A stretch of 34,099 nucleotides of DNA from Methanobacteriota archaeon (lineage in GTDB: Archaea > Thermoplasmatota > Poseidoniia > Poseidoniales > Poseidoniaceae): contig JABIWF010000142.1 of NCBI GenBank assembly GCA_018701175.1, positions 1 to 34,099 of the forward strand, given 5' to 3'. A model generated the notes under the pieces. The model saw nothing but the letters and a program-made list of their open reading frames with translations. It did not search any database and was not told the DNA's origin. Positions 4,253-30,700 of the stretch are shown here, piece after piece; the stretch's first letter is position 1; each line of letters begins with the position of its first letter. Both the position numbers and the translations under genes were made by a program.

Positions 4253-5095
4253 ATGGGTGTTCAATATCGAGGTATTGAATTTCAGAAAATTTCCGCTGGC
4301 AGTGCTTATCTCGGTACCGAGAAAGGTGGGTGGATTTACGCAAGTCAACGACCTCGTCACGAGGTGAAATGCCCCGACTTTTACATCATGCAGTCGGTTC
4401 TGTCCGAACAACAGATCAATGACATCCTCCAATCAGAGAACCAAGATACCAAATTGGATGGCGGTAGTATCAACGAAATTTGCCGTCGCTTTTCCGATGG
4501 AGTTGCCGGTGCAGAGTTCCTTACATATTCCGAACATACCTGGGAGGTCCGCAGTCCAAGTGAGGGTGAATGGCGGCACGCTCATGAAAAAATTGGACTT
4601 GAGTTAAATCCAAAGAAAATAGAAATCCTTGCTGATGGCGTAGCTGACAATTATCGGGGAGCGATGATGGATGGTCGGCCACGTCCCTTCCACGGCATTG
4701 GACCGATGGCATCACATCGAACCGCCATTGAAACCCACCCCTCGCAAGAGGGAGTTACTGCGCTTTCCAGCGCCCCAATGGACCGGCCGTTGGATGGAAT
4801 CGTAACCCGTTTAGTCATCACTCCAATACGGTCTGGCGAAGGGAAAAAAGTACCATTAAACGCTGATTTCTTTGCTAACATTCGAGGTGAAGTGTTTTGG
4901 ACATTCCTTCTCGGTGTCGTCCCCTCGTTCGTCATTCCTATCGCCCGAGGTATGGGCAGTTACGCAGTAAGTGGATGGGCCAACCTGTTGTTTGGTGGCC
5001 TGTGTGCGGGATTTGTGACCGGTGCACTTTGGAGGCCACGTCGACCTACTCTGCAGTACGATGATATCGAAGACTCAACGCTCATCCGGGGGTGA
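4253..5095 (+). CDS. FGE/SUMF1-like domain protein with two C-terminal membrane helices
   Basis: 280 residues. Residues 8-60 resemble the start of a formylglycine-generating-enzyme (sulfatase-modifying factor) domain: EFQKISAGSAYLGTE, then RPRHEVKCPDFYIMQSVLSE. Residues 97-110 (WEVRSPSEGEWRHA) match the family's YRLPTEAEWEYA motif, and DGIVTRLVIT near 181-190 matches its terminal GFRLV strand. The RGGSW block and the C-terminal active-site cysteine pair of true FGEs are not seen, so this is likely a non-oxidising member used for binding. Two membrane helices follow at about 213-232 and 238-258, then a short cytosolic tail. The start is ATG at 4253 with GAGGTGG overlapping the previous stop, indicating translational coupling. 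The last 21 bases overlap the convergent malic enzyme gene. Confidence 0.65.
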   Translation: MGVQYRGIEFQKISAGSAYLGTEKGGWIYASQRPRHEVKCPDFYIMQSVLSEQQINDILQSENQDTKLDGGSINEICRRFSDGVAGAEFLTYSEHTWEVRSPSEGEWRHAHEKIGLELNPKKIEILADGVADNYRGAMMDGRPRPFHGIGPMASHRTAIETHPSQEGVTALSSAPMDRPLDGIVTRLVITPIRSGEGKKVPLNADFFANIRGEVFWTFLLGVVPSFVIPIARGMGSYAVSGWANLLFGGLCAGFVTGALWRPRRPTLQYDDIEDSTLIRG

Positions 5096-10600: not shown

Positions 10601-13600
10601 TGAGTCTCGTTGGCGACATGATAATGATCAGCATCGCCTCTCAAAATTGGTGGCAAGTTGATGGATCCGGCGGAATTGCACAGTGGGACACAATCAACAA
10701 CTCATGGAGCGATAATATTCTCCCTATCGGTCAAGTCGACCGTGTAACAGCCTACCAATCCTCGAGCGGTAACATGTGGGTTGCATGGGGTGAAAACTCT
10801 CTACAATACATGGCAGCAGACGGAACTATGCTCGGTGAATGGGATGACGATGACTTCAATTTCCCAATTCGAGAAATTCTGGAATACGACGGAGAAGTTC
10901 TGTTCGCCACAGAAGATGGTGTTGCTCGATACAACGAGACAAGCGATCAGTGGCTTTCGTTATGGGAAGAAGGAAACGGACTCCCCAACAATGCTGGCTC
11001 CCAAATCTATGAACTGTGGACCGACGGGACAAACCTTGTTGTTGGCGGTGGAGATGTCAGTGGATTTGGACAATTCCAAGGCGGTTCTGTTTCCCATTGG
11101 GACGGAAATGTATGGTCTCAGTATTCTATGGGGAGCAGTGGAACGCCAGGTGGATATCCACTCTCCATGGCTGAATGCGGTGGATTGCTTCACATTGGAA
11201 TCTATGCCAATAACGGCGGCGTTGCTCGCCTAGATATGGCGAATGATACCTTCGCAGGTTCGTTCACACGGACGGTGTTAGGAGAAGGTGAAGTTGCAGG
11301 AGTTGCATGTGACGCAACAGACACGCTCTATGTCGCCTTTTACGAAGACGATGCGAACATCATGAAGTACGGATATTCATCCGGAACTTGGCTAACGCCA
11401 ATTACGACAGCAACAAACAACCTGCCAAGCGATCGGGTGTGGTGGGATGCCATCGACTACGCCAATGGACAACTTGTTCTTGGACATGGACTTGGAACCA
11501 GTGGCGACAATGTCATCGGCGGAGGTTACACTACCATTGCGACCTCGGGTAATTCGAATGCACAAGCCAGCGTTAACGGGGCTGGTTCTTCAGTTACATC
11601 TTTCCAACGAGTCAACAACCAGTGGCTCCTTGGCCAAGCAGGTAGTTCATCAGGATTCAGTAAGGTGCTCACCATTAGCCCTCTGGGCCAAAATACCATT
11701 GCTTCGCTTCCAGGCTTGGCCAGTGGGCAAGTCACCACAATGTCCGGCAACAGCACACACCTGTGGGTGACGACTGCTGGAACAATCGCAACCTCCACTG
11801 GCTTTGGACAACCCAGCGGAGCTGGGCTTCTCCAAGGGGAACGTCAGTCAGACGGTTCAATTCTATGGCAAGACGGATGGATAATGGCTGCAAACAGCAA
11901 AGCGCAAGACGCTGAACTCATTGGTACAGACTTGTACATTACCACAACTCCAACCGGCCTGTACAAACTGGATACGCTGACTGGAACAGTTACACGGCTG
12001 AACGGCGGATTGCACAACAACCTCGATGGAATGGTTCGTGTCGGAACAACTCTGGTCCTTGGATTGATGGGGAGCGGAGGTTCTGCACCTGGCGTTCAAC
12101 TTTATGACATTCAAACGGGATACGGTAACGGAAAACTCATTGGAGGCCTTCCTTCAAACGCAATCAATAATTTCGCTGCAACTTCAGATGTGCTTTACAT
12201 CGCCACGAACGGCGGCATAGGAAGATGGAATTATTCTGCTGCTGATTGGATGAACCCTCTCACTGCTGCAGACGGCCTTCCAACAAACATCATTGAAGAC
12301 GTTCTGGTGGAAGGAAACTATCTGTGGATGGCAACACCTGCAGGACTTGCTCGAAGAGACATTACAACAAGCAACACGATTGTTTACACTTCAGCATCTG
12401 GACTTATGGGGACTTCGACAATGTCACTGACCTCTGCTGTGAACACCATTACCAACAGCGACGGAACCGTGTTCAGTGAAACCACCCTCTTCATCGGACA
12501 CGACGGCGCCGGTAACGAACGTCCTGCTGTAACGACCATTGGATTGACTACAGGTGATGTTATAGGTCACGAATTTGACCAACTGCCTTCAAACAATGTC
12601 GACGCTTTAACGAGCGATTATTGGGGCATACATGTAGCGACTGATATAGGACCCATGGTGCACTGGAACAGCAGTTCCAACTTTTTCGAAAGCGGAATCC
12701 CGTCCTACCAAATCTTTGGCTGGCCCGTTGAAAAGATGGTAAGTGATGGCGAACATGTTTTGATCTTCGGCGGGAACGGTGTATCCATAATCGAAGCCAG
12801 AACAAGCACCCATCAAAACATCAAGATGTTTTCAATGCCGCAACTCACTGGCGGCACCCTCTCAACTGATTACATATGGTTGACAACGGATGGAGACGGA
12901 TTGTTTGGATACCAAAACAATGCACAATACTCAGAGGTTGACCGGATTTCTGTTCGATACGCCAACCCACTTAGCGTCGGATTCAATCTCGCTGCCCAAG
13001 ACATTACGGACATGACAAACCCTGGCATGAACATCACATTGGCTGACCTCGATTCTACGGTTGCCTTGGATTCAACCCAAGGCGTTGTTGGAACGAATGG
13101 AATTCTGTTCCAAACCGTTCCGCTTGCGTTCACTTCCCCGGTGAAAAACGCTGCCACTTGGGCTCATTCGAAGAGCCTCAAGTACAACGCAACCATTGAA
13201 CTCAATAACAATCCAGACTTTGAAACAAGCCTACAGCTTGCTGTTCAAAATGGCGTCATCATCAACGGCACCCAGTTCTTGCAACTGTCGTTGTACTCAC
13301 CCTCAAACGGCTCAATGCAGGTTCGACTCATCTACGACTATGTTCGTACTGAGACACCGATTACAATGACCGATTTGATTGACCGGCCGGACGACGGCGG
13401 AAGTGCATTGCTCGCGAATTGGACGCTTGTTCACGACGAGAATTTCGCACGCTACCTGGTTTATGTTAACGACGGACCGTTCGAGACCACATCTGGACTC
13501 GCACTCACTGCTGACGATTTGGCTGGACGAACGGTGGATAAAGCCGTCTCCCTCCACAGCAGACTTTCGAGCGAAGTAACAACGGCCAACGGACAACCGC

Positions 13601-15972
13601 TTGTTGATGGAGAAGAATACTATGCTGTTGTCGTCGTCGAATACGATGATGGCCACCTCGGCACACCTTCTCCGGTGATGGGCCCAGCCTCTTCAAGCAA
13701 CGAAATCCCACTCTCACCAATATGGGCAAATGCTGGACCTCATGAAGGTGGAGCAGATGGCGACTTGGAGGTTGAATGGGCACGTTGTACTGCTCTCGAC
13801 CTCGCGAGCACGATTATCTACACTTCAACGAGTCCAATGACGGACCTCCTTGGATTGCCTGTGGAAGCAGAGATTGCGAAAGAAGAGGGGAACACAACCG
13901 TTCTCGCTCTTGACGCTGGACAGCCATACTGGCTTGGTTTGACCTGTTCTGATGAATCCGGACAAGAAGATTTGATGAAGCCGCTCATCATTGGACCTGT
14001 GGTCCCAACTGGTGGCCTGAACGATAACACAGCCCCACCGAAAATGACGAATGTCGAAGCCATTGATACACCGGACGACGACGGTGGCCGAATATCAGTT
14101 ACTTGGGATGAAAACCCTGCTGAAGATTGCACATTCTATGCTGTCTTCATCCAGATGTCGACTGGAAACTTCGATGGTGATACCGTGTTATCTGCTTCTG
14201 TCGAAAGTGATGAATTTAGCCAAGCGAAAATCATTGATGATTGCACCGAAACTTCGACCACTGTAACAAGCATTGACGGTGTAGCGCTTCAGGACGGTCA
14301 GGCGTACTATGTTGGCGTCGTTGCCTATGACGATTGGCTTAATGCAAACCTTGCAGATGTCGACCTGGTCAAAGTCACTCCACTCCGTAATACTGCAGGA
14401 ACTGGTTCAGTCCCCGATAGAGTTGGAACGGTCAATGCCTTTGATCATCCCGACGATGATGGAACGGCAATTGACGTCATATGGTCGATTTCCGATGCTG
14501 ACGACTTCTCTCATTACATCGTTTGGGCTGCTGACAGGCCTCTGGCTGACCTTTCGGTTGCATGGGCTGCATTTGGTGATGATGAAACCAAGTGTGCCTG
14601 TTTGAAAATTAACAAACAATGGATTGACGAAGATTACAACCCCATCGAACTCTCAATCTCTACTGCTTTGTATGGTGGCAATTCCATTGTTGATGCCACC
14701 CCGCAAATTATCAAACCTGGAGTCGAACTCTATGTTGTTGTGACCGTTCACGACCTTGCTGGAAATGTTCATCTCACCGAACTTCCGCAAGCAACGGTCG
14801 TTCCAATCAATAACCTGCAAGATGTTACTGCACCTGCAGCACTTGACGCACTCGAACTTTATGACCGTCCAAACGATGCCGGTGGAGCACTTCTCCTCGA
14901 CTTCGAGCTGAGCAATGAAAGCGATGTCGCTAACTATGAAGTCTATGCTGCCACATGGTCGTTTGACGCTATCGGAATGGGAAGCACCGGTCCTGCAACA
15001 CCAATTGCTATCCTTTCCCGACTACCCGATTTGCCGCTCACCATCGAAGTTGTCGCTGGCGATACCCCAGTGATAGCAGGCCAGGAAATTTGGGCTGCTG
15101 TTGTAGTAAGAGACACTGCAGGAAACGCTCAGGAAATCAACCTCGTAAGCGTGTCAGCCCAATCGGTCGATGATGGCGTAGATGACCTCGGCGGATATCT
15201 AGAAGAAATCGAAGACATTTCGCTCACCTGGAACGATGAAAACAATATTCTGGTTGAATGGACGCATTCAGCAGAGTCATCCGTTCGCGGTTACCGTATT
15301 TACATCTCAGATGTGGACTTTGAAACAACCAGCAACGGCGATTTTGTTGTTGAAGTCAAGGCTTCAAACTCGTTCCTCATCACGCAAGGCAATTACCAAC
15401 CTCTCAAGAACAGTTCTGCCTGGTACGTCGCAGTAACACCGTTTGATGACCTGTTTGAGCGAGAAGAAGTGAAGACGGTCATGCTCGACGTGTACGGTAA
15501 AGAGCCCCAAGGCAGCGACGGACAAGATTCTACGAACGAGAATGACTTCTCATCACTCCTCACCACACCAAATCTACTGGCTGCAGGATTGTTAGCCGTG
15601 GCACTTCTCCTGCTTGTGGCAATTGTCCGCTCACGAAGTGGGCAAAAGAACCGTAATAGAAGCCTGGAGTTGCAAGAAGCAACCTGGGGCATCCAGAACG
15701 ATGACTGGGATACATTTGGGACTCCAGTAGCACCACCTCCAATGCCATCGGCCCCAATGCCGAGTGTCAGTCAAGGACAAGCAAACGATATGTATGCTGC
15801 AGCACAGAGAATCGAAAATCAAGATCTCTATGGAAGACCGGCATACCAAGCGCCACAACCGGTCATGCGACCTGCACAGAACAACGCACTACTGAATGAC
15901 CTGGCTGAACCGAACACTCCGAAACTGCCTCAAGCAAGCATTGATACCTCATTCTTGGATGATTTACTTTGA
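7633..15972 (+). CDS. giant secreted surface protein: beta-propeller repeats, FN3-like domains, C-terminal membrane anchor
   Basis: 2779 residues. Residues 1-40 are a classic signal peptide: basic start with RDARR, a Leu-rich core, and a likely cleavage after SAVSA. Residues about 175-1780 are an array of propeller blades, many ending in a G-(V/I/L)-A-R-(W/Y)-D-type strand followed by W-L-(S/T)-x-W, the style of two-component-regulator (Reg_prop) and related propellers. Residues about 1910-2620 are FN3-like domains, four marked by a D-x-P-(D/N)-D motif at 1917, 2145, 2271 and 2411. A membrane helix (AAGLLAVALLLLVAIV) is near 2647-2663, followed by an Arg/Lys stop-transfer patch and a Pro-rich cytosolic tail ending FLDDLL. 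Most of the mass is outside the cell, anchored by one helix. Ligand unknown; polysaccharide or particle binding is a guess. pabC starts nine bases after its stop. Confidence 0.88.
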   Translation: MRSSANAKSPKRDARRALLLVLLMLLSSAAPILSFSAVSAHESSVDTVWPQEGSNDTGWVQLDATGASPGSPTQASAPWTLEFAPGAELSNVSFQVRVNGSDGLMIEEPMLIASDIGVNLLDWRGLGMLGSQDSFTGPNPYSGRMSPNSDSGATWTLPSEAEITELVIEALAPVDPFVALAPLELNIAATAFHPVDGRMYMAIDNTLMTLDYSNDPIAIDIIETNSNILDIVIDTTNNLLHLLTEDGFSAYSLGDTSEQNGLTAPTFWPESSSEPMYDVFHLATNGFVYAAYDGGIAQWDGGNWSFPVTKLTSGKALDILEANGVLYVAFDDEGVARWDLNSGSALSTWSSANSLHSDEIVEMMISGNQILFASLDSGLARYDWNSGFWLSTWTDGNWLASNSINGIARSGSDLFILSGDTLHIYDTTSGVFTSSQVISNFGLTGDGSDLIVWPANGVRAPTSELLLLGNGFGSFAELTPSPTLTQTGTLLIGSGPTSSSMQDATELDGVVFVAADEWMNRFDTQASRWLQPVYLGTTVNQLMNDGSHVFIASESGLHKMHSNGSLLQTWNAANTDLNKDEVLRVDSDGTHAVAITGEGEMLVVELNGANPPTVEQYDSAAVDLTLFSNTVHLATDNSGILRYELTNESWLTPWISTGINGADDVPVAVNGDILYFGIPGYGVARKDMATDELMAPLTTPSNSPGQSNPNSILPSDTIYSLESNGNDLYIGTANGAIVWDGSTSSTFKTGGQWNTRPQRYYDFTATGGNVYAGTNIGVCKWPASQIASANPDCLNVYDGMPNWATYSVESDSYGYIYGGTTSGVGIITASPYDVVGEWEAGEQTQNAPVAVIGDVAFIALDGIGIARYDMPNNAWLTLWTDDNYLDDGNEDATSLSVDIDPNLIWIGGSDGLQLLNATTGAEVYDIEKSSSLFTGNGDPLDMILKGDTMYYHDGASSDNLYRFNAQNFTALPSLDVGTQIGQNNGDINGMSLVGDMIMISIASQNWWQVDGSGGIAQWDTINNSWSDNILPIGQVDRVTAYQSSSGNMWVAWGENSLQYMAADGTMLGEWDDDDFNFPIREILEYDGEVLFATEDGVARYNETSDQWLSLWEEGNGLPNNAGSQIYELWTDGTNLVVGGGDVSGFGQFQGGSVSHWDGNVWSQYSMGSSGTPGGYPLSMAECGGLLHIGIYANNGGVARLDMANDTFAGSFTRTVLGEGEVAGVACDATDTLYVAFYEDDANIMKYGYSSGTWLTPITTATNNLPSDRVWWDAIDYANGQLVLGHGLGTSGDNVIGGGYTTIATSGNSNAQASVNGAGSSVTSFQRVNNQWLLGQAGSSSGFSKVLTISPLGQNTIASLPGLASGQVTTMSGNSTHLWVTTAGTIATSTGFGQPSGAGLLQGERQSDGSILWQDGWIMAANSKAQDAELIGTDLYITTTPTGLYKLDTLTGTVTRLNGGLHNNLDGMVRVGTTLVLGLMGSGGSAPGVQLYDIQTGYGNGKLIGGLPSNAINNFAATSDVLYIATNGGIGRWNYSAADWMNPLTAADGLPTNIIEDVLVEGNYLWMATPAGLARRDITTSNTIVYTSASGLMGTSTMSLTSAVNTITNSDGTVFSETTLFIGHDGAGNERPAVTTIGLTTGDVIGHEFDQLPSNNVDALTSDYWGIHVATDIGPMVHWNSSSNFFESGIPSYQIFGWPVEKMVSDGEHVLIFGGNGVSIIEARTSTHQNIKMFSMPQLTGGTLSTDYIWLTTDGDGLFGYQNNAQYSEVDRISVRYANPLSVGFNLAAQDITDMTNPGMNITLADLDSTVALDSTQGVVGTNGILFQTVPLAFTSPVKNAATWAHSKSLKYNATIELNNNPDFETSLQLAVQNGVIINGTQFLQLSLYSPSNGSMQVRLIYDYVRTETPITMTDLIDRPDDGGSALLANWTLVHDENFARYLVYVNDGPFETTSGLALTADDLAGRTVDKAVSLHSRLSSEVTTANGQPLVDGEEYYAVVVVEYDDGHLGTPSPVMGPASSSNEIPLSPIWANAGPHEGGADGDLEVEWARCTALDLASTIIYTSTSPMTDLLGLPVEAEIAKEEGNTTVLALDAGQPYWLGLTCSDESGQEDLMKPLIIGPVVPTGGLNDNTAPPKMTNVEAIDTPDDDGGRISVTWDENPAEDCTFYAVFIQMSTGNFDGDTVLSASVESDEFSQAKIIDDCTETSTTVTSIDGVALQDGQAYYVGVVAYDDWLNANLADVDLVKVTPLRNTAGTGSVPDRVGTVNAFDHPDDDGTAIDVIWSISDADDFSHYIVWAADRPLADLSVAWAAFGDDETKCACLKINKQWIDEDYNPIELSISTALYGGNSIVDATPQIIKPGVELYVVVTVHDLAGNVHLTELPQATVVPINNLQDVTAPAALDALELYDRPNDAGGALLLDFELSNESDVANYEVYAATWSFDAIGMGSTGPATPIAILSRLPDLPLTIEVVAGDTPVIAGQEIWAAVVVRDTAGNAQEINLVSVSAQSVDDGVDDLGGYLEEIEDISLTWNDENNILVEWTHSAESSVRGYRIYISDVDFETTSNGDFVVEVKASNSFLITQGNYQPLKNSSAWYVAVTPFDDLFEREEVKTVMLDVYGKEPQGSDGQDSTNENDFSSLLTTPNLLAAGLLAVALLLLVAIVRSRSGQKNRNRSLELQEATWGIQNDDWDTFGTPVAPPPMPSAPMPSVSQGQANDMYAAAQRIENQDLYGRPAYQAPQPVMRPAQNNALLNDLAEPNTPKLPQASIDTSFLDDLL
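8155..12975 (+). repeat. propeller-blade repeat array inside the giant surface protein
   Basis: Protein-level tandem repeats, diverged at the DNA level. Clear copies of the blade signature include GVARWDLNSGSALSTW, GLARYDWNSGFWLSTW, GIARYDMPNNAWLTLW, GVARYNETSDQWLSLW, GIGRWNYSAADWMNPL and GLARRDITTSNTIVY. The W-L-x-x-W strand is often followed by a loop of the type TDGNWL or AADGLPTN leading into the next strand. The number of blades is well above one propeller, so several seven- or eight-bladed propellers in series are likely. Confidence 0.7.
13357..15480 (+). repeat. FN3-like domain repeats of the giant surface protein
   Basis: About six successive beta-sandwich domains. Four begin with the same acidic turn: DRPDDGGS (residue 1917), DTPDDDGG (2145), DHPDDDGT (2271) and DRPNDAGG (2411). 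Each is followed by a strand ending in W or F, then a Y-x-V/I-Y/F-A/S strand such as ARYLVYVND or SHYIVWAAD. Two more domains lack the exact motif (around 2036 and 2540). The acidic D-x-P-D-D-G turn could bind calcium, which is inference. Confidence 0.6.
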
Positions 15973-15981
15973 GGCGTGCCG

Positions 15982-16770
15982 ATGAGTCTGGAACGGTTGA
16001 ATGGTCCACGCAGCGAGGTGTTTACCACCGCATTGTGGGATGGAGCGTTTGCCATTGCAGACTGGCCACATCATCTGAAGCGACTTTCTGAACACGCAAA
16101 ATTACTGCGCATCAAGCTGCCAGAAAATCTATCGCAGCAGATGGAATCTCTACTCCAACAAGAGAGTGCATCAAAACAGACAACTCAAAATCATAATCCT
16201 GGACTTTTGCTAAAAATAAAATGCTCTAAGTCCGGTGAAGTAAGTGTTGATTCACGCCCCATTGATTTTCGCAATGAAGAAATCGATGCCGTTACCGTGG
16301 AAGCACCGCGCTGGTCAGCAAAAGTGAACGGTACCAAGCATGGGGATTGGCAAGCATACATCGACGCTCGAAGCAATGCTGAAGAGAAAGGCGTAGACGT
16401 CGCTTTCTTGGTACACGATTACGCCATCGTCGATGCCGATCGTGCCTTACCTGTTGTTCTCGATGAAGACGGCGTGGCATGGGTGGCTGCACACAATGAA
16501 GGAGGTGTCAGAAGCATCACGTTTGAGATATTGTCGCAAAAGTTGCAAGACGCAGGAATACCAATTCAATTTGGAAGACTCAATGAAAGGCTCGTAGCCC
16601 GTGCTGCTGAAATCATAACATTGGGTAGCGGAACCGGTGCATGCAGAATACTTTCTCTGGACGACGAATTACTTGGCAGTGGAGATATGCTCTCTTCGCT
16701 TTGCCAAGCTCTTCTGCAACAGCACTATCAAAACAACGAAACATGGTCTGATGTGAGGTCGTTCAAATGA
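15982..16770 (+). CDS. pabC: aminodeoxychorismate lyase-like aminotransferase class IV
   Basis: About 262 residues, fold-type IV PLP enzyme. Visible are the N-terminal HLKRLSEHAKLL helix, the K119 in GTKHGDWQAYIDAR corresponding to the PLP lysine, the DADRALPVVLDEDG strand-loop segment, and GVRSITFEILSQKL followed by RAAEIITLGSGTGACRI at the C-terminal end. Family members are PabC and branched-chain or D-amino acid aminotransferases; the assignment to PabC rests on the immediate downstream PabB-PabA gene, with which it shares a four-base ATGA overlap. It would convert aminodeoxychorismate to p-aminobenzoate and pyruvate. The ATG at 15982 is chosen over GTG 15976 because GAGG, overlapping the upstream stop, lies seven bases before it. 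Divergent around the middle, so activity is likely but unproven. Confidence 0.78.
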   Translation: MSLERLNGPRSEVFTTALWDGAFAIADWPHHLKRLSEHAKLLRIKLPENLSQQMESLLQQESASKQTTQNHNPGLLLKIKCSKSGEVSVDSRPIDFRNEEIDAVTVEAPRWSAKVNGTKHGDWQAYIDARSNAEEKGVDVAFLVHDYAIVDADRALPVVLDEDGVAWVAAHNEGGVRSITFEILSQKLQDAGIPIQFGRLNERLVARAAEIITLGSGTGACRILSLDDELLGSGDMLSSLCQALLQQHYQNNETWSDVRSFK

Positions 16771-18998
16771 GCCTTGGCATCCTAGCGTTGCAGAGCCATT
16801 TGCAAGAGGTCGGACTGTTGGGTCCAAAGGCGGTCCACTACGGAGGGCCGGATGAAGTACTGTTGTGCTCATCAGGGCCACACTCGCACCTTGCAGAATA
16901 TTCGATCTTATGCGGACCATCACGTCGGCGCGTCTTGGTTCGTCAACCGGGAAATATGGATTCAGCCCAACCACATAGCCCACTGCGTGGCGAAATATTC
17001 TTGCACCAAGAAAAGAAGTCATTCACTGCACAAGTCGAAGAATGGAAGCATGGATGTTGGTATCATTCAACATCCATCTTTGCAACCGGTTTGGATGAAT
17101 TAATGGAGAAATTACGAGACTTAACTCCGAATGAGCCCTTCGCCCAATCTCCCCATTCAAAACTCCCTCAAGGGCCGTTTTGGAGCGGCTCATTTGCATA
17201 CGATATGGTTCAGTGGACGCAACCACTGCGTTTACAGCATCAACCCGAAGATGGTGAACTTCTAACCATCTTATGGCTGGTTGAACGGATGGTTGTGCAA
17301 AATCGAGACGACGAGACGATGAGGGTTTATGCTCTGGAAAACGATACTTGGGCTAATGAAGCCAACTTGAACCTCAATAAGTATCCAACGTTGAAACCCC
17401 TTAATGCGCCTCAGCAATCTCAAGAGACGAGTTCGTTAACCGATGAAGACCATGAACGCATCATCGATAATATTCGTGAAAGCATACGGGATGGGCAGAT
17501 GTATCAAGTCAATGTTGGGCGATGGTGGGATGGAAAGTTAAACGAACATCCTAGGCATATATTTCAACGGCTCAGCGAGAAAAATCCTGCTCCTTTTTCA
17601 GCCTTCATACTCGCCCCTGACCTCGGATTTTCACTTGTGTGTTCATCACCCGAATCACTGATCAGATGCGATGGATCGAAGGTATTCACCGCGCCAATCA
17701 AAGGAACACGGCCACGTGGTGAAGATGCCGAAAAAGAAGAAATGCTCCGAGAAGAAATGATTCGGGACGAAAAAGAACGTGCTGAACACCGTATGCTGGT
17801 TGACTTGATGAGAAATGATATCGCAACGGTATCCAAAGTCGGGAGCATACAAGTCGAACGTTTTGATGTCGAGGCATACACACATGTACAGCACCTCGTC
17901 ACTCACCTCTCAGGAGAATTAGAGGATGGAAAAAACGGTATTGATGCAGTTCAAAGTGTGTTCCCTGGCGGGAGCATTACCGGGTGTCCACGCACGGTGG
18001 TATGTGCCGCCATCGATGAGATTGAGCAACGCCCACGCTCGTTTTGGACCGGCTCGATAGGTTGGATAGATGTACATTCTGGAGCGTGTTCACTGAATAT
18101 TGCTATTCGTACTTTGATTGCTAAAAAGCAGCGCAGACAGTGGCTCGGAAGTATTGCCGCCGGGGGAGGGATTACCATCGGCTCTGACCCAAAAACAGAG
18201 GTTGAGGAAGCAAAGTGGAAAGCTGCGGCACTTCGCAAAGCATGCGGCTGGATGGAACGTGAACAATCTTCGCTGCCTGTAGGAAAACTTGCAACACATC
18301 CACTGCGTATCGAAGCGCCACCCAAAACAATACGTGCTGGGAAGGTTGAATTTATCGACGGGAATGAGGATTGTTCCGATGGAATTCTTCTCATCGATAA
18401 CCTCGACTCGTTCACATTGAACATTGCACACGCAGTGTCCGGTCTAGGTCGAAATGTTAGCGTCCTCAAATCGAGAAACAGTCACTCTCATTCCAATTGG
18501 AGTACTGAAGATGTAAAACAACTCATAGAACGCATCAACCCTACGCACATTATCCTTGGTCCTGGGCCCGGTAAACCAACGAACTCGCCACTTACCATGG
18601 CCATTGCGTCAGCGGCCCTTTCCGGAGAGATATCCATTCCCTTACTCGGTATTTGCTTGGGCCATCAAGCCATAGGGATGGCTGCAGGCATGGAAATTCT
18701 CCGCCCCGAAAACGGACCTGTTCACGGCTCACCTCGGCAATGTGTACACGATGGAGTAGGGTTGTTTTCCGGTATTGAATCTCCAACACCTTTTACGCGC
18801 TATAATTCTCTATGTGTAATACAATCCCACCCAAGTCAACTGGTTGAAACAGCAGTTGAAGAAGGCAGTCAGATGATTATGGGGTTGCATCATGAGACTT
18901 TGCCAATCCACAGTGTCCAATTCCATCCTGAATCAGTTGGCTCCCGTCATGGTTTACAATTGCTGCAAAATTTCCTCTCGATTGAAGCGGATGCTTGA
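16767..18998 (+). CDS. pabB-pabA: aminodeoxychorismate synthase, PabB-PabA fusion
   Basis: 743 residues. The first 500 are a chorismate-binding synthase: FWSGSFAYDMVQW, GQMYQVNVGRWW, the PIKGTRPRG loop and FPGGSITGCPRTV, then GSIAAGGGITIGSDP. Lys312 in PIKGT is the nucleophile position that distinguishes PabB from anthranilate synthase (which has Ala), and PGGSITG rather than PAGTLSG points the same way. Residues about 545-743 are a class I glutamine amidotransferase: LIDNLDSFTLNIA, ILGPGPGKP, nucleophile Cys630 in LGICLGHQAIG, and the His720/Glu722 pair in VQFHPESV. The synthase-first order in one chain lets ammonia pass internally. Together with PabC this makes p-aminobenzoate, which points to folate or a pterin relative. 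The four-base overlap with pabC indicates one operon. Confidence 0.92.
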   Translation: MSLGILALQSHLQEVGLLGPKAVHYGGPDEVLLCSSGPHSHLAEYSILCGPSRRRVLVRQPGNMDSAQPHSPLRGEIFLHQEKKSFTAQVEEWKHGCWYHSTSIFATGLDELMEKLRDLTPNEPFAQSPHSKLPQGPFWSGSFAYDMVQWTQPLRLQHQPEDGELLTILWLVERMVVQNRDDETMRVYALENDTWANEANLNLNKYPTLKPLNAPQQSQETSSLTDEDHERIIDNIRESIRDGQMYQVNVGRWWDGKLNEHPRHIFQRLSEKNPAPFSAFILAPDLGFSLVCSSPESLIRCDGSKVFTAPIKGTRPRGEDAEKEEMLREEMIRDEKERAEHRMLVDLMRNDIATVSKVGSIQVERFDVEAYTHVQHLVTHLSGELEDGKNGIDAVQSVFPGGSITGCPRTVVCAAIDEIEQRPRSFWTGSIGWIDVHSGACSLNIAIRTLIAKKQRRQWLGSIAAGGGITIGSDPKTEVEEAKWKAAALRKACGWMEREQSSLPVGKLATHPLRIEAPPKTIRAGKVEFIDGNEDCSDGILLIDNLDSFTLNIAHAVSGLGRNVSVLKSRNSHSHSNWSTEDVKQLIERINPTHIILGPGPGKPTNSPLTMAIASAALSGEISIPLLGICLGHQAIGMAAGMEILRPENGPVHGSPRQCVHDGVGLFSGIESPTPFTRYNSLCVIQSHPSQLVETAVEEGSQMIMGLHHETLPIHSVQFHPESVGSRHGLQLLQNFLSIEADA

Positions 18999-20729: not shown

Positions 20730-22697
20730 TCACTCTTCTTCCGAGTCGAGAATCTCGTTACGGATTTTGGAAATCATAATGTCAAGTTCGGGGAGATTCA
20801 AGCGGCCATCACCATCGAGGTCAACTGCGTTGACAAGTCGGCCCATTTCCCATGGAGGCAAGTCTGCAATGTTAGCCTTGGATAAGGCTTCTCGGAATTC
20901 GTAGCCGTCTACCTCTCCAGACCCATCAAGGTCGATTGAACTGAAGAATTCAAAGATGGATTGCTTGGACTGCTTGAGGTATTGTGCAAGCATGACGAGT
21001 TCTTCTGGCATAGGGTACTCTGCGACTTCATCGTTGTGAAGTTGAGCTGAGACGCGAATCAAAGATGAGCCGCCTTCGTCTTCTTCGACCTCTCCAATGG
21101 TGAGGTTCGTATCGATACCGACGCCACGGCCGAGCAAAGTGCGAATGGTGGTTGAGCCTTCGACCAGTGTGTAAGAGTGGATATCGCTTTGAACTGCCAA
21201 GTCAGCGTATGCTGCGTTGTTTGGACGACCGGTGTGAATCATTGAAAGTGCAGCCAAAATTGTTCCAAGTGTAACGAAGTAGAACATTGCTGCAGAAACG
21301 AGGAAGAATCCGTCGGTTGATGCCACAGAATCTTCGATGCCAGAGTTCACTACAGCGTATTCAGTAAAGTCTCCAATGAGCGCTGATACCGTTGCAGTCA
21401 CGCCACCAATGACGGTGAACCAAACTGCAAGTTGTGCATTGCTTGCCTTAGCAAGTTGCTTCTGTGCAGCGAGTGGGTAGGAGGAGAAAATTGCAGCGAG
21501 CATCATCAATCCGCCGATGGTTGACATAAATCCTGTATCAACGGTGTGAGCCATCGAACCGAGTTTGTCCATTCCAACGAATGTGTCCATTCCAGTGAAG
21601 AACCCACCAACGGCATAGATTGGAAGAAGCATCATTGCAGCAGTTGCGGCAAATGCACCTGGACTCTTAACGATGCGTTCTGGGCTTGATGCGGCTGTCG
21701 CAACCATGTTTACTGAACCTGCAAACAATGGAAGGAGGCCAATCGCCATGAGGATGGCGCCGATGTTCTGCAACAATTCGCCGCCATCAGCAGCAGAAAG
21801 GAAGAACGGAGGAACGGTGAGGAAAAGGAACATCATGTTTGTCTTCTGCATTGAAGCGGACCATACTGGTTTGCCTGCAGTGAATGGAATGATGTGGTAT
21901 GCTGCAGCAAAGATAAGTGCAAGAGGAACCCATCCATTCAAGACTCTCTCTGCCAACCAAACGGTTTGGGTTGAGTCGACGACATCGCCAAAGAAAGCCA
22001 GGAACATGCTCATGATCTTTGCAACCAAAGCAAGTACGAGGAACCAGGTTGTAGGAGACAGGTCGTCATGCTCCCGCTCCCCGATGGTGATGAAGACGTT
22101 GATGAGAAGTGCAATGTGAAGCATTGCTCCAACCAAAAGCAGGGAGATGTTCTGAATTGTTTCCAGCACTTCGGCTCCGTTCGAAACATCGATGAGAGAG
22201 AAGACCGCTGGAAGCAAGAGAACAACGGTGGTTGATGCCGTAAGAAGAACTGCAACCATCGAAGCACTGGCTTCACTGGCCAGACGGCCGTTGGAAGAGC
22301 GTGAAACAGCGACAAGTGCGGCACCAATCAACAAATAATTCAAAGCGGTAGAAAAGAAAATTGCTGTGTAATCGGTCAACATTGAACCGTCATCATAACT
22401 CCACCCAACGCTGGATAACGAGTTCAGAGCGGCCGGGTCGTACCGATGCCAGATTCCCAAGAACATGCTAAGAGCAGCCATGAAGAACCAAGCCATACCG
22501 AAGCGCATCCAAGTCTTTGTCCCACTGCCCGCTTTATCGCTAAACAAGTCAATAAGACCTGCTGGGGCTTTGTTAAGCAAGAACAAACCAACTTGTCGCA
22601 GTGGTTTTGCCATTCCGCCAATTCCCTTGACCATGTAATTAGCAACAACGATGAGTGTTGCCAGAAGAAGACCTGCTGTAATGAATACTGTTTCCAT
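20730..22697 (-). CDS. heme-copper-oxidase subunit I-like membrane protein without metal ligands, with two EF-hands
   Basis: 655 residues with about 13 hydrophobic segments in residues 1-500. Its helix order and linkers resemble cbb3/NorB-type subunit I: FLGIWHRYDPAALN, TDYTAIFFSTALNYLLIGAA where the low-spin heme His-Thr would be, AERVLNGWVPLALIFAAAYH where the copper His would be, IIPFTAGKPVWS matching the Y-x-I-P-x-x-x-x-R/K-P-x-Y/W-S loop, and TVPPFFLSAADGG where the His-His pair would be. The equivalent of the helix X GHVHSG is GFMSTIGG. All ligand positions I can align are non-His, so catalysis is improbable. Residues 510-655 are soluble, with two canonical EF-hand loops, DLDGSGEVDGYE and DLDGDGRLNLPE. 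A membrane calcium-responsive or structural role is inference. A strong AGGAGGTG precedes the ATG at 22697. Confidence 0.65.
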   Translation of the reverse strand: METVFITAGLLLATLIVVANYMVKGIGGMAKPLRQVGLFLLNKAPAGLIDLFSDKAGSGTKTWMRFGMAWFFMAALSMFLGIWHRYDPAALNSLSSVGWSYDDGSMLTDYTAIFFSTALNYLLIGAALVAVSRSSNGRLASEASASMVAVLLTASTTVVLLLPAVFSLIDVSNGAEVLETIQNISLLLVGAMLHIALLINVFITIGEREHDDLSPTTWFLVLALVAKIMSMFLAFFGDVVDSTQTVWLAERVLNGWVPLALIFAAAYHIIPFTAGKPVWSASMQKTNMMFLFLTVPPFFLSAADGGELLQNIGAILMAIGLLPLFAGSVNMVATAASSPERIVKSPGAFAATAAMMLLPIYAVGGFFTGMDTFVGMDKLGSMAHTVDTGFMSTIGGLMMLAAIFSSYPLAAQKQLAKASNAQLAVWFTVIGGVTATVSALIGDFTEYAVVNSGIEDSVASTDGFFLVSAAMFYFVTLGTILAALSMIHTGRPNNAAYADLAVQSDIHSYTLVEGSTTIRTLLGRGVGIDTNLTIGEVEEDEGGSSLIRVSAQLHNDEVAEYPMPEELVMLAQYLKQSKQSIFEFFSSIDLDGSGEVDGYEFREALSKANIADLPPWEMGRLVNAVDLDGDGRLNLPELDIMISKIRNEILDSEEE

Positions 22698-22703
22698 ACA
22701 TCA

Positions 22704-22711
22704 CACCTCCT
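22704..22711 (-). promoter_or_regulatory. strong Shine-Dalgarno of the oxidase-like gene
   Basis: On the minus strand AGGAGGTG lies six bases before the ATG at 22697 and overlaps the TAG stop of the upstream 90-residue gene. This is the best ribosome binding site seen in the window and fixes the start of the long membrane protein. Stop and site share bases, so the two genes are probably translationally coupled. Confidence 0.75.
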
Positions 22712-22982
22712 AATCGACAATGACCTCGCTGAGAAGTGAGGCGACAATAGCGCCGACACCGATGAGAATACCGATCAAATAGTACCAGATTCCACTGCCA
22801 CCTAGGTTTCCGATAAGTGGCACCAGTTCTCCGAGAAGAGGAATATTATCCCACCCGAATACGTTTGAAAATAAGGCGAGGAGACCAAGGAGGGCAACGC
22901 TGAACAAGGTCAAGAAGACACGGCTGCTCGATGGTTCTCCTGTTCCAACGGTAACATCTGGTAGAGTAGTAGCGCTTGACAT
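22710..22982 (-). CDS. small two-helix membrane protein, partner of the oxidase-like protein
   Basis: 90 residues. The N-terminus is polar (Ser/Thr-rich, about 20 residues), followed by a hydrophobic helix near 22-42 and a second near 64-86. The loop between them contains GWDNIPLLGELVPLIG, which may lie on the membrane surface. No family was recognised. Small two-helix accessory subunits are common beside oxidase subunit I genes, so partnership with the downstream protein is plausible but unproven. It is the first gene of a three-gene operon, starting at ATG 22982 with GGTGATG upstream, and its stop lies inside the Shine-Dalgarno of the next gene. Confidence 0.6.
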   Translation of the reverse strand: MSSATTLPDVTVGTGEPSSSRVFLTLFSVALLGLLALFSNVFGWDNIPLLGELVPLIGNLGGSGIWYYLIGILIGVGAIVASLLSEVIVD

Positions 22983-23088: not shown

Positions 23089-24255
23089 TTACAGTGAACG
23101 AAGGCGGTCCAACACATTCCCTCGTCGATGCTTCGAAATCCCAAGAGGAACTGGTAAGGTTTGTTCGAGCAAAATCTCTTCTTTCCATGCCTTTTCACAT
23201 TCACAAGAAAGACCTTCAAATTCTTCAAGTTCGCCCGAAACTGCATACCGTTCAATGGCCGCCACGACAACAGAATCGCACGCACCGCAATTGTGTGCAC
23301 CACGAATTTTACCGCCAGCTGTAGGGTGGATAATGAGGCGGCAAACTTGGTCAGCGTCGCCGTTCTTTCCACCTTCCGGGTGGATAGTAGGGTGAGCTCT
23401 ACGAATCATTTCAACCAGAGACCAAAGCCATGGTGGGCGGTACTCGTTGTTACGGTGAAGTCGGTCAATGATGGTGCCACGCTGGATATTCATCGGATTG
23501 ACTGAAATCTCATCACTGCGGTCTGCAACTTGTTCAATCCATCGAACGCCATGAATCAAAGCATCCGCCTCACTCATAAACGGCGGTTTGAACATCAAAT
23601 AAGTCTTCACTCGAATGTCGAATTTCTTTAAATTCTCTACTGCTCTGTCCCACGATTTCGTCGTGAAGCCCTTGTTCACGTGGAAACGAAGCACCTCATC
23701 ATCGTAAGCCTCGAGTCCGATGGCTACTGCAAAGCTTTGATTCAATTGAGATGCCCAAGCCAGTTTCTCCTCAGTCAGTTGTTCACATCGGCTCTCAACA
23801 ATGAGTTCCTTACCGAGTTCTTGGCAATCCCTCAATACAGTTTCTTGGAATTCCACTGGTATTTCTCTGTCCTCGAGCAGTGAACCACTCGTGTACACCT
23901 TAACCATGGCATGGTCTTTAAAATCCTCAAATTTCTTCTTAGCATAAGCCCATTGCGAGTGGAGATCTTCGTTGGTGACATCATCTCGAGTATCGTTGAA
24001 GTATCCACAGAAAGTACAGCCACTGGACCACCACCAATGGCATCCTTTGGTCCTTAAGATTACAGTTACAGCACTGCATGGAGTGCCGTCTGCTAATGTT
24101 TCAGGCGTGTAATAGACTGTTGCTGGCTCACTTGCATCCCACGACTGTTGACGGGCAACAGCCCATGGAGTATTTGCTGGTGCTTTGACGAGGTCGTGAA
24201 TACGTGAACCTTTGGCTCCGTCTCCAACAAGTGTCAACGACTTCGGCCCGGTCAT
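23089..24255 (-). CDS. archaeosine synthase radical SAM subunit (RaSEA-type)
   Basis: About 388 residues. Cysteines in LRTKGCHWWWSSGCTFCGYF (Cys72, Cys80, Cys83) form a C-x7-C-x2-C cluster motif. This spacing, with the preceding LRTKGC and following GYFND, is characteristic of the archaeosine-type radical SAM family and differs from the usual CxxxCxxC. Further support is KVYTSGSLLEDREIP, IVESRCEQLTEEKL, AIGLEAYDDEVLR and the C-terminal CGACDSVVVAAIERYAVSG with a CEC pair. With ArcS, RaSEA converts the modified preQ0-lysine base at tRNA position 15 to archaeosine. ArcS is not in the window. ATG 24255 is preferred over TTG 24273 because GAGGG lies five bases upstream. It follows the PSD gene after 60 bases. 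Confidence 0.8.
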   Translation of the reverse strand: MTGPKSLTLVGDGAKGSRIHDLVKAPANTPWAVARQQSWDASEPATVYYTPETLADGTPCSAVTVILRTKGCHWWWSSGCTFCGYFNDTRDDVTNEDLHSQWAYAKKKFEDFKDHAMVKVYTSGSLLEDREIPVEFQETVLRDCQELGKELIVESRCEQLTEEKLAWASQLNQSFAVAIGLEAYDDEVLRFHVNKGFTTKSWDRAVENLKKFDIRVKTYLMFKPPFMSEADALIHGVRWIEQVADRSDEISVNPMNIQRGTIIDRLHRNNEYRPPWLWSLVEMIRRAHPTIHPEGGKNGDADQVCRLIIHPTAGGKIRGAHNCGACDSVVVAAIERYAVSGELEEFEGLSCECEKAWKEEILLEQTLPVPLGISKHRRGNVLDRLRSL

Positions 24256-24315
24256 GGTATCCCTCAATGTCAAGTCGCATGGCTATGCCGTTTCAATCCA
24301 CCGCTTCAAGAACGG

Positions 24316-27045: not shown

Positions 27046-27702
27046 ATGGACATCTTCTTGGAATGGGTCGGCTCGACTGTTTCTATGAGCCGAAGAGAAG
27101 CGACCGAAGTATTCAGTGAATGGGCTGAAAAAGGCAAGGATAAAGGCATGGAAAATGGACATGCTGCATCGGTCCACGCCATGCTAGAACTTGGCGGAAT
27201 TCCCCGTTCAGATAACTATTCGGCCGTCGACATTGGATGCGGCAACGGGTGGGTTTGCAGATTGCTTGCCCAAGATGAATCATGCACTCGAGTTCTCGGT
27301 GTTGATGGCTCAGAGGCAATGATTTCCAAAGCACGACAGATTGATTCCAACGGCGAGTATAAGGTTACAAAGTTGCCCGAATGGATGCCATCTGAAAAAT
27401 TTGATTTTATCCACAGCATGGAGTTCCTGTATTACCTCCATGACCCACAATCCATGCTCAAGCAACTGCATGAAAACTGGCTAAACAGCGGTGGAATGTT
27501 GGTTGCGGGTATTGATCACTACCGTGAAAACGATGACAGCCACGATTGGCCCGACGCCCTGAATGTTCACATGACCACACTCAGCATCGATGAATGGAAA
27601 GCAGCCATGATTGAAGCTGGCTTTATTGATGTAGAAATGCACCAAGTTGCTGCAAGTGAATCATTCCTCGGAACGCTTGTCATGTGCGGCAAAAAAAACT
27701 AA
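27046..27702 (+). CDS. class I SAM-dependent methyltransferase
   Basis: 218 residues. Motif I is VDIGCGNGWVCRLL, followed by the acidic VLGVDGSEAMISKAR, FDFIHSMEFLYYLHDPQSML as motif IV/post-II, and a GG-containing LNSGGMLVAGIDHY. This is a standard Rossmann methyltransferase of the UbiE/Methyltransf_11 kind with an unknown substrate. An N-terminal FSEWAEKGKDKGMENGH segment is probably a substrate or lid element. ATG 27085 (MSRREATEVF) is an equally possible start; neither has a clear ribosome binding site, so leaderless initiation is likely. The stop overlaps the convergent helicase stop by four bases. Confidence 0.8.
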   Translation: MDIFLEWVGSTVSMSRREATEVFSEWAEKGKDKGMENGHAASVHAMLELGGIPRSDNYSAVDIGCGNGWVCRLLAQDESCTRVLGVDGSEAMISKARQIDSNGEYKVTKLPEWMPSEKFDFIHSMEFLYYLHDPQSMLKQLHENWLNSGGMLVAGIDHYRENDDSHDWPDALNVHMTTLSIDEWKAAMIEAGFIDVEMHQVAASESFLGTLVMCGKKN

Positions 27703-30700
27703 TCTTCATCAGCCGAAACTGGGCCAAGTGATGAGCCTTCTGGGCCACACAACCGTATTTGCCCTCGGGCAAACGGGCACTGTGAACACACTTCAGATTT
27801 CTCTTCTGGCAAGCGTGGAGGTTCATCCAATGCACCGGGAGTTGCAGAAAGTTGTGCCATCCATTCAAGATGGTCGGCCAAGGTCGAAGTTGCGGATTCG
27901 TACTCGGTTTGCGTCAACTGAACCATTCGTCCCGACGCCCCGATAAGCAGGGCAGGAGGTAGGATTCTGCGGCGCTCGTCGGCTGGCTTCTGTTGTTCAA
28001 GAACTTCCAATGCAAGGGAATAGAGCGTCAACTGCAGACGGTGTTCATCCAGTATCGAGCGTTCCTCCAAGGTCGAAGGGAAAGGTACCAACGCATCTCC
28101 TTTGTACCTCTGAAGTCTACTTCCTTGGTTCGGGTTTTCAGAATTAAATTCATCCCTGCATCCCTTGGTTTTAAGGTCCACAACCTGAAGGCATCCGTTG
28201 CCTTCTGTATCACGTAACGCAAGCACCAAATCTGCTCGTCCGTCAAAGATAACATCAACATGGTCAATTTGGGCAATGTTCTGTTCTCCTTCGACCGAAA
28301 AACTGGTTCGCATCAGACCATCAAATCCAACTTTATGTCGGAAAAAGAACGGGAGTTCTGTTCGTAATCCTTCAACACTGAAACCAAAGTGTTGCTCACC
28401 TGCAGCATATCGTCCAAGCAATCCTTCCCGTACGAGTTTACCGAGTTGAGCCAAGCGGCTCAATGTTGCCTCGAATGCATCTGAGCCGGAAGAAGTAATG
28501 CCTTCTTCAGCCAAAACGCGCTCGATGGTTTCCTTATCATCGAGCAAATCCTCTCCATCAAAAACCCATGCTGGCGGCAGAGGAATGGACGGTGGTGCAT
28601 TCTTGACGCATGGATTTTCCAAACCAATTTCTACCAATCGATGCATGAGCGTTCCAAAAACAGTTGCAGGAGGATAGATTGTGGCTGAAAATTCAGAAGA
28701 AGGGCGGTTCAAAAACAAGTTCAATGGTTCCGGATTCCAACCCTTCACCTCAGAAAGCCAATGACGGCGAGGGCAGGCGAAACTGGTATCCAGTCCATGG
28801 GCGGTCATCCGCATCATTTCACTCACCAAAGGAAGAGGTTGTTCTGAAGTTACTACAGGTTGGAGACCGTTGAGGTGGGCCTCTAGGTTCATCCATCTCT
28901 GCAAAGGAGTGGCTGTCGTAAGGCCAGGGAAACAGTCCGGCGAGTGGTAGATGTACAGCGATTGAACAGAATGAGGGCCTAAGCAAGCATCGTGAATCAA
29001 GGACCGTGGATTGATCGAAAGAGTTGTTTCCTTGTATTGCGGGAGTTGTTCACCAAAGACGTCGTTTTCTTGAAGCCATGGTGAATTTTCTATGTGATGT
29101 TGGTGGGATAAACTACGCAATCCATCAAGCCACATCGCACCCATAGTCTTCATCGAAGGTTTACTCTTGAATCCAATACAATGGGTTTCTTCATCAATTG
29201 TAGCCGAATCACTCGGAGAACCGACGACGATCAGTCTGTCCTTTACCCGGGTTAATGCCACATAGAACTCTCGCCTACGTTCTGCTTGACGCTGAGCATG
29301 ATCCATTCGCTTAGCGAACTCCCAAAGTCCATCATCAGGTCGGTCGCGTGAGGACCAAGGATTGATTCTGCCTGCCACCACTTGGGGTGTGACCAAGACA
29401 TTGTTTCGAACTGCCAATGATGCGTCTGATTTCCCAGCGTGGAACATTCCTGCGACGACAACAACAGGAGCCTGGAGACCTTTTGCACCGTGAATCGTCA
29501 TTACTTGCACTGCTCCGCCTGATGGAGTAATAATGGCTGATGGACCTTTTCCTCCCAGCGACTGGAGAGATTTCATTCGATTGAAAATAGCGGAAGCCTC
29601 GTGACCCAATTCATTTCCAATTGAGGTTGCGAGAGCACACCATGCCTCAGCATTCTGACGTGAAGTGTCGTCTGAATACGCCAAAAGCAAGTCCGAGTGG
29701 TCAAGGATCGTGTCAAACACATCGTGTACGGCACCCTGTTGTACGAGAGATTCCATGTGGGCTACAAGCCGTTGAACTGACTCATTTGGAGCATATTCGT
29801 GTATTTTCTGCCACCAAGTTTTATCTTTGTCTGACGACATCATGGCATGGGCTTGAACATCGTTGAAACCGAAGACTGGAGAACGAGCAAGAGACAATGC
29901 AGCATGGCGAGAATGAGGGAAAGCAATCAATTCAAGGCATGCCAGGAGAGGGGAGACAACCGGTCGTTGAAGAAGTGCCCCCTGTCGATCGGCCATAACT
30001 GGAATCCCTCGTGATTGAAGCCGCTGTATGAGATCTGGAATGTACTTTCGAGAGTGAACCAGTATGATGACATCTTCTGGAAGTACGGAAGTTTGAGTCG
30101 ATGCTACTCGATGATAGCCGTTCACCGAAGCATCCCAAACTTGAGTTGGGCTTTGTGTAACGAGCGCTTGCAAACGTGCGGCAATCAATTCATTCTCGAG
30201 ATGGGCTCTTTTTGCTTCGGGGTCTGCAAATGTATCTATCCTCTGTTCAAGGTCAAGACTTGGCGGCTCAACGCCAATCTGCAGTGGTAATAACCACTCC
30301 AATACGCCTTCATCATCAATATCTCGTGCAGGATGGAGCGATTGCGATTCAGCATGCCAATCTCCCGGAAGAACATAATGCCGTTCATCGAAGACGTCGT
30401 CAAACATACCGTTCATCGTTCGCATCAAATTGTGCAAAGTTCGATGGTTTGAAGTTAAATCAATATGGCCGAGAAGTCGACGTTCTCGCCGTTCATCTGA
30501 AACCAAACGAGAATGTTCCTCTCCGTCTTCAAAACCGACCTCGATATGCTCCCACAACTGCGATTTGACGACCGAGCCCTCAATTTGAGAACCTTGAATG
30601 AAAGAATTTCCTGCACCAACTGGGCGTGGATCTCTGCCGCAACCATCAGCGTGCAAATGCTGCAACCTTGGTTCAGACTGTTCGATTGAATTAGCGGTTT

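Follow-up and report, generated by a model that had tools for sequence, protein, structure and literature searches.

The six histidine ligands of heme and CuB/FeB are the entry criterion for the heme-copper oxidase (HCO) superfamily in Sousa et al. 2011 (PMC3084760), and the classifier described in the available part of that paper discards sequences without them, so that HCO surveys relying on it would miss homologues lacking these residues. In C-type (cbb3) oxidases, a helix VII tyrosine is cross-linked to a CuB histidine, as stated in an excerpt of PMC8780969. The accessible portion of Meheust et al. 2022 (PMC9258230) describes fam02696, an unannotated Halobacteria family often located beside HCO genes, whose distant homology to HCO subunit I was detected by comparing hidden Markov models (HMM-HMM). 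Here we describe P0001, a ligand-free CcoN-like protein of 655 aa that is likened to fam02696 by description only and is encoded at positions 20730–22697 (minus strand) of a 34,099-nt archaeal DNA stretch (hereafter, the window; contig JABIWF010000142.1 of the Poseidoniaceae assembly GCA_018701175.1, a 1.9 Mb genome that is 86% complete). The gene starts with ATG and contains no internal stop, its assignment draws on profile and model evidence, and its nearest named copies (98 and 97% identity) belong to Candidatus Poseidoniaceae or Poseidoniales. By sequence comparison, we show P0001 to be a descendant of C-type (cbb3) subunit I, predicted to be free of heme and copper, that keeps the 12-helix core and has one extra N-terminal helix. 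Compared with CcoN/FixN, it has lost the six metal-binding histidines and the helix VII tyrosine, and differs in the extra N-terminal helix and, family-wide, in tails with EF-hand or SAP domains; the rhizobial CcoN consensus also begins with an extra stretch, hydrophobic by eye. The open-licence literature, supplementary tables aside, yielded no description of the P0001 family, the fam02696 statement being the nearest, and the tables of PMC9258230 may list the family among Poseidoniales modules. A haloarchaeal hypothetical protein beside norB was considered as a fam02696 candidate and rejected as a soluble protein by eye.

We took 24 homologues spanning the two families of the order and compared their membrane parts (~515 residues, tail removed; alignment A2) with known oxidases. 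A profile built from A2 matched five of 177,635 distinct PDB sequences at E ≤ 10, all of them cbb3 CcoN (best 4.4e-12). Profile-profile alignment (hhalign) joined A2 to five CcoN at 7.6e-15 over 403 columns and to eight CcoN at E = 9.2e-21 over 413 columns, compared with 2.3e-4 over 189 columns for three nitric oxide reductases (NORs) and 0.032, out of register, for six A-type COX1. In a local control, the A2 profile scored eight CcoN at 32–83 bits and two of three NORs at about 17 bits, listed none of six A-type and none of 17 reversed sequences, and reached at most 5.1 bits on shuffled sequences (n = 340). Furthermore, nine columns are invariant in six CcoN and reach 95% conservation or more within the family, and all of them hold the same residue in both sets (9/9, hypergeometric P = 0.009). 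The affinity is thus closer to CcoN than to NorB or the A-type: NorB was rejected as parent for its weaker link, and the histidines shared by HCOs and NORs are absent from P0001; A-type COX1 was rejected for its off-register alignment. A viral origin was likewise rejected, since P0001 had no match in viral contigs. In a tblastn search of plasmids with one family member, 41 records matched (best E = 1e-4); among the 20 records listed, the six with a named feature were cbb3 subunit I and the other 14 were unannotated. The cbb3/NorB-type order of segments proposed in the first-pass annotation was therefore narrowed to cbb3, and the profile link to HCOs on which its idea depended is present.

A family profile was needed for this link because searches with the single sequence gave no lead to the membrane part: in Pfam, P0001 alone matched EF-hands plus a Dockerin model at 0.11, in NCBIfam it matched an EF-hand effector family and a single chance model, and in the PDB it matched 290 sequences, the best 60 of which were calmodulin-type. 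Similarly, PF00115 (COX1) matched seven of the 24 family members at E ≤ 10 (best 5.1e-10) and gave no match to P0001; its curated cut-off was not reached, the member from genome G026 attaining it only when pieces were summed (35.6 versus 34.8; 34.5 in another scan). In a reverse search of nine genomes, a CcoN profile recovered the homologue in five (best 2.6e-12) and detected no catalytic CcoN, matching only the ligand-free family. COX1 genes of the class are A-type, with the GHPEV motif (an A-type motif according to an excerpt of PMC8780969) in 30 of 30 genes fetched. In the genome of the window, only a COX1 fragment was seen. Because the class COX1 genes are A-type, no catalytic CcoN was matched and P0001 derives from the C-type branch, the earlier term paralogue is not supported if it means that the organism's own oxidase gave rise to P0001 by copying. 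A second divergent COX1-like open reading frame (ORF) of 559 aa (G298:C12:625-1980, minus strand; PF00115, E = 5.1e-38) was also missed by the CcoN profile.

Hydropathy indicated 13 hydrophobic helices in P0001, the number anticipated by the first-pass annotation, and an AlphaFold model of residues 1–515 placed 13 helices at the predicted positions (pLDDT, the predicted local distance difference test, 80.3; pTM, the predicted template modelling score, 0.86), of which helix 281–291 is short. In the structural comparison, the 50 entries listed were all HCO or NOR subunits, with cbb3 first, in agreement with a subunit I fold. Residues 1–54 (22536–22697, minus strand) comprise the extra N-terminal transmembrane (TM) helix (2–24 in the model) and a conserved amphipathic segment predicted to be cytoplasmic, modelled as a helix at 30–42 in addition to the 13, and G25, F39 and K43 of this N-terminal segment are invariant in A2. 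Most positive charge falls on the odd-numbered loops, which under the positive-inside rule would place the N-terminus outside and the tail inside.

We then examined the metal-ligand positions by aligning six CcoN with 85 distinct rows of the family. None of the six metal-binding histidines is present in P0001 (0/6), placing it outside the catalytic members of the superfamily. The low-spin heme position of helix II is occupied by Tyr110 (22368–22370, minus strand) and is never histidine in the family (0/85). Asp-Tyr had been proposed here; Tyr110 holds the position, and Asp109 is its neighbour. At the CuB position of helix VI stands Arg251 (21945–21947, minus strand), which aligns without gaps (W247-x3-R251 beneath W-x3-H) and replaces the Leu-Asn suggested earlier; the family has His in 38/85, Arg in 28/85 and Lys in 8/85 rows. 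The registers of these two helices are anchored by neighbouring conserved residues, and those of helices VII and X are less certain. In helix VII, PFFLSA (residues 297–302; 21792–21809, minus strand) replaces the HH pair, which falls on FF298-299 or SA301-302, with His in 0/85 and 6/85 rows of the family; in helix X, VDTGFMS (residues 386–392; 21522–21542, minus strand) replaces the HxH, with V386/T388 or F390/S392 at the pair and His in 0/85 and 5/85 rows. Neither register holds histidine in P0001. The loss of histidine at "FFLS" and "GFMSTIGG" was thus read correctly, the exact residues facing the ligands being uncertain. Because of this uncertainty, we counted histidines over whole segments: the HH segment contains at most one, in 8/85 rows, and the helix X segment contains His in 30/85 rows, with two in a single row. 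His384 of P0001 is near the helix X positions, at a distance of two to eight residues, and is Gln, Phe or Glu in relatives. Nowhere in the family does a His or Cys column reach 50% (highest 0.47). The column of CcoN Y310, which we take to be the cross-linked helix VII tyrosine, holds V295 in P0001 and Tyr in 0/85 rows.

Accordingly, the first-pass annotation was right that every metal ligand is lost from P0001 and that no histidine occupies an aligned metal site, with the qualification that 74/85 family rows have a basic residue at the helix VI copper position. A tree combining six CcoN with 68 rows of the family (midpoint root, several long branches flagged) implied 14 changes among ten states at residue 251, and early branches in both families carried Lys. 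Given these early Lys branches and repeated switches, we do not claim the helix VI histidine as a retained ancestral ligand.

The P0001 gene is conserved and nearly universal in Poseidoniales. We sampled the phylum evenly, covering 126 genomes from this order, 8 other class genomes and 255 genomes outside the class. Strong matches were found in 123/126 order genomes (weakest 2e-82), which bears out the expectation that the same ligand-free protein is conserved across related genomes. None of the eight sampled class genomes outside the order (sister family f3) was matched, and the 255 genomes outside the class gave three weak, short matches (E = 0.001–0.003), two of them with stops. The TM part was not found in three order genomes that are 80–90% complete (G110, G151 and G253); tail matches in two of them belonged to other ORFs (A2 score at most 1.1 bits), the third had no match, and an assembly gap is possible. 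In 5/123 genomes there was a second row, which proved to be pieces at contig edges, a weak match or a short fragment, and two full copies occurred in a few metagenome-assembled genomes (MAGs) of a class-wide search. One such MAG, G065 (5% contamination), carries forms of 655 and 659 aa (L102 and L103), each in the same gene order, reflecting either two strains or a true duplication. Ratios of nonsynonymous to synonymous substitution rates (dN/dS) against three relatives were 0.029, 0.039 and 0.051, the last two with dS above 1 and thus near saturation. We therefore consider a decaying remnant without function close to untenable: all catalytic ligands are lost, but dN/dS of 0.03–0.05, near-universal presence and invariant residues across the order speak against decay.

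The C-terminal tail varies among lineages. P0001 carries two PROSITE-like EF-hand loops (589–600 and 626–637) within residues 582–638 (20784–20954, minus strand), as the first-pass annotation had recognized; PF13499 scores 31.5 bits against a cut-off of 30, and none of 2000 shuffles of P0001 contained two such loops. The tail thus qualifies as a predicted calcium-binding EF-hand pair. The loop pattern was found in 45 of 87 distinct rows, all in family f1 by tree place or genome list, and in no row of family f2 (we take f1 to be Poseidoniaceae and f2 to be Thalassarchaeaceae); f2 homologues end in SAP domains or without a domain, and some f1 members carry SAP with or instead of a clear EF-hand. 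Calcium control, proposed earlier for the protein as such, therefore cannot be a general mechanism. Pfam typing of seven tails revealed an EF pair in L039, two EF pairs in L049, an EF pair plus SAP in L052, SAP and EF matches below cut-off in L050, SAP just below cut-off in L055 and above it in L060, and no domain in L058. SAP domains are usually DNA- or RNA-binding, and at the C-termini of L050, L052 and L060 they form part of the cytoplasmic tail in a 13-TM protein. In G110, a different ORF of 782 aa with several hydrophobic helices (L178:364-2712, minus strand) has an EF-hand tail close to that of P0001, matching residues 553–648 at 5e-39 with no match to the HCO core. The tail is thus not tied to this core, and such EF-hand tails seem, from these alignments, to be shared among unrelated membrane proteins in these genomes.

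We further compared the gene neighbourhood of 34 loci from both families, in which RaSEA and the GTPase outside the window were assigned from similarity clusters. Gene order is conserved across loci, running RaSEA, 2-TM protein, CcoN-like protein and YchF-like GTPase. In the window, a 90-aa protein with two hydrophobic helices (22710–22982, minus strand), a putative partner subunit without any Pfam match, is followed 12 nt downstream by the start of P0001; a similar small ORF lies upstream of P0001 homologues in 34/34 loci, and one with the partner motif was present in 132/134 locus instances, redundant ones included. Further upstream is the archaeosine radical SAM protein RaSEA (23089–24273, minus strand; TIGR01210, 5.7e-88; 34/34 loci). 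The next co-directional gene in 33/34 loci, the contig ending in the 34th, is the YchF-related GTPase (PRK09602; 19423–20733, minus strand). With the first GTG taken as its start, this gene shares 4 nt with the end of P0001. Both window proteins exceed their NCBIfam cut-offs. No CcoO/CcoP operon arrangement was found, as RaSEA, the 2-TM protein and the GTPase are the immediate neighbours in the 34 loci, and no cytochrome c domain was detected among eight window proteins scanned.

The conservation pattern, expressed as weighted bits (overall mean 2.20), leans towards a cytoplasm-facing scaffold or adaptor. Values are high in the predicted cytoplasmic N-terminal linker (2.68), loops 134–146 (2.71) and 271–287 (2.61) and the juxtamembrane motif GSTTIRTLLGRGVGIDT... 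at residues 514–534 (21096–21158, minus strand; 2.86), the highest mean of all segments, whereas the outer loops average 0.98, 1.65, 1.71, 2.02, 1.82 and 2.55 bits. Most members contain a TIRxLLxxGxGxDT-like version of this motif, with the first-half pattern in 73/86. Electron donors of cbb3 oxidases act at the outer face. Because conservation favours cytoplasmic segments instead, we propose a heme-free, CcoN-derived scaffold that works through its cytoplasmic face and is joined to its 2-TM partner, and give this reading a probability of roughly 0.45. Such a protein would no longer carry electrons or pump protons, and its former heme cavities would be filled by side chains, lipid or quinone. 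A docking platform may be formed by the amphipathic N-terminal segment and the TIRxLL...DT motif together with the two well-conserved loops on the cytoplasmic side, while lineage-specific tails (EF-hand pairs, SAP or none) would tune or add binding partners; calcium could adjust docking in the lineage of the window, an option that the other family would not have through EF-hands. We know of no heme-bearing sister subunit for P0001. CydB is a comparable non-catalytic membrane scaffold in that it is a heme-free relative of a heme-bearing respiratory subunit and, according to the part of PMC6853902 available, binds ubiquinone-8 at positions homologous to the CydA hemes; quinone or lipid in the P0001 cavity is suggested by this analogy. 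The likeness concerns how the proteins would work, since CydB, with nine helices, belongs to a different protein family.

Several observations weigh against this reading. Cytoplasmic stretches 206–218 (1.94 bits), 335–348 (1.99), 409–422 (2.23) and 487–513 (1.78) are average or low, and the outer stretch 83–112 is high (2.55). TM9, at 2.72 bits, ranks among the most conserved segments; P323, N330 and T334 are present in 85/85 rows and also fixed in CcoN, so the role of the membrane core may go beyond that of a scaffold. The mostly basic helix VI copper position likewise hints that the former active site kept a task. The neighbouring genes for RaSEA and the GTPase have housekeeping roles and offer no functional hint. 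The AlphaFold model is based on 24 sequences, and the CcoN profile misses the gene in the window's own genome and in three others of the nine. The function, binding partner and cavity content of the scaffold are extrapolated.

Among the alternatives, it appears rather unlikely that P0001 serves a Marine Group II (MGII) respiratory complex, for example the A-type oxidase or the unusual complex III found in these archaea, as a heme-free, CydB-like subunit or as an assembly factor. HCO-like folds are at home in such complexes, a COX1-family gene scored over the cut-off in 109/118 sampled class genomes and the A-type motif occurs in every COX1 gene fetched. MGII also lacks a canonical bc1 complex, as reported in the available text of Tully 2019 (PMC6336850). 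Yet none of the immediate neighbours in the 34 loci is respiratory, and the COX1-family gene is found in 17/21 f3 genomes, whereas the P0001 family is found in 0/8 of the f3 genomes sampled. The first-pass annotation named a channel, a sensor or an assembly partner as possible roles. Use of the HCO fold as a transporter or channel, calcium-gated in the EF-hand lineage, would agree with 13 TM helices, conserved membrane Asn and Thr residues (N200, T204, N330, T334), the mostly basic residue 251, an acidic D371 (88%) at the outer end of TM10 and the EF-hand pair itself. Against gating and transport stand the lack of the EF-hand pattern in f2 rows and the SAP domains added or substituted in some f1 members, the absence of any acidic residue conserved mid-helix in the membrane at an 80% threshold, and the absence of a supported transporter family match (none for P0001; one member FUSC-like, E = 0.083); we regard this explanation as doubtful.

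About as doubtful, or slightly more so, is a signalling or docking hub in which quinone or lipid took the place of the hemes: this filled, heme-free shell would sense the membrane quinone pool (or the lipid state) of MGII cells and signal it to the cytoplasm, with the conserved N-terminal and TIR-motif platform as relay and the calcium or SAP modules as lineage-specific outputs. Heme or metal might still be bound through other ligands (Lys/His/Arg251, His268, His384), making the protein a heme sensor or carrier; besides the basic residue 251 (74/85), column 268 is His or Tyr in 82/85 rows, and the helix X segment holds His in 30/85 rows, P0001 with His384 among them. However, the low ceiling for any His or Cys column (0.47), the Gln, Phe or Glu that replace His384 in relatives and the 14 changes among ten states at residue 251, a pattern unlike that of a ligand, make this version improbable.

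Returning to the scaffold reading, the fold would have outlived its chemistry, as a gene that is near-universal in the order has lost the ligand set of the redox centres. Members of Poseidoniales have been described as the most abundant planktonic archaea in surface waters, in the portion of PMC6461757 available, and an ancient oxidase shell thus seems to have been kept for another job in an abundant ocean archaeal order. The family may offer a clean case of the use of an oxidase shell without redox centres, with quinone or lipid replacing heme as in CydB, and also of cytosolic domains (EF-hand, SAP) swapped on a fixed membrane core. If the quinone- or lipid-sensor explanation were true instead, it would be, as far as we searched, the first HCO fold fixed order-wide for a non-redox task.

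Other features of the window include a 2779-aa ORF (7633–15972, plus strand), by eye a secreted propeller/FN3-like repeat protein with a C-terminal membrane anchor, and a malic enzyme fused to a phosphate acetyl/butyryl transferase (5075–7396, minus strand; PF00390, PF03949, PF01515). A 743-aa fusion of anthranilate/aminodeoxychorismate synthase component I with a glutamine amidotransferase is encoded at 16767–18998 (plus strand); the amidotransferase model TIGR00566 is over its cut-off, and among the component I models listed none is. Finally, the region 27699–34087 (minus strand) encodes a 1650-aa helicase-nuclease-like and a 479-aa RecB-nuclease-like ORF, which overlap by 4 nt and by eye resemble AddAB.
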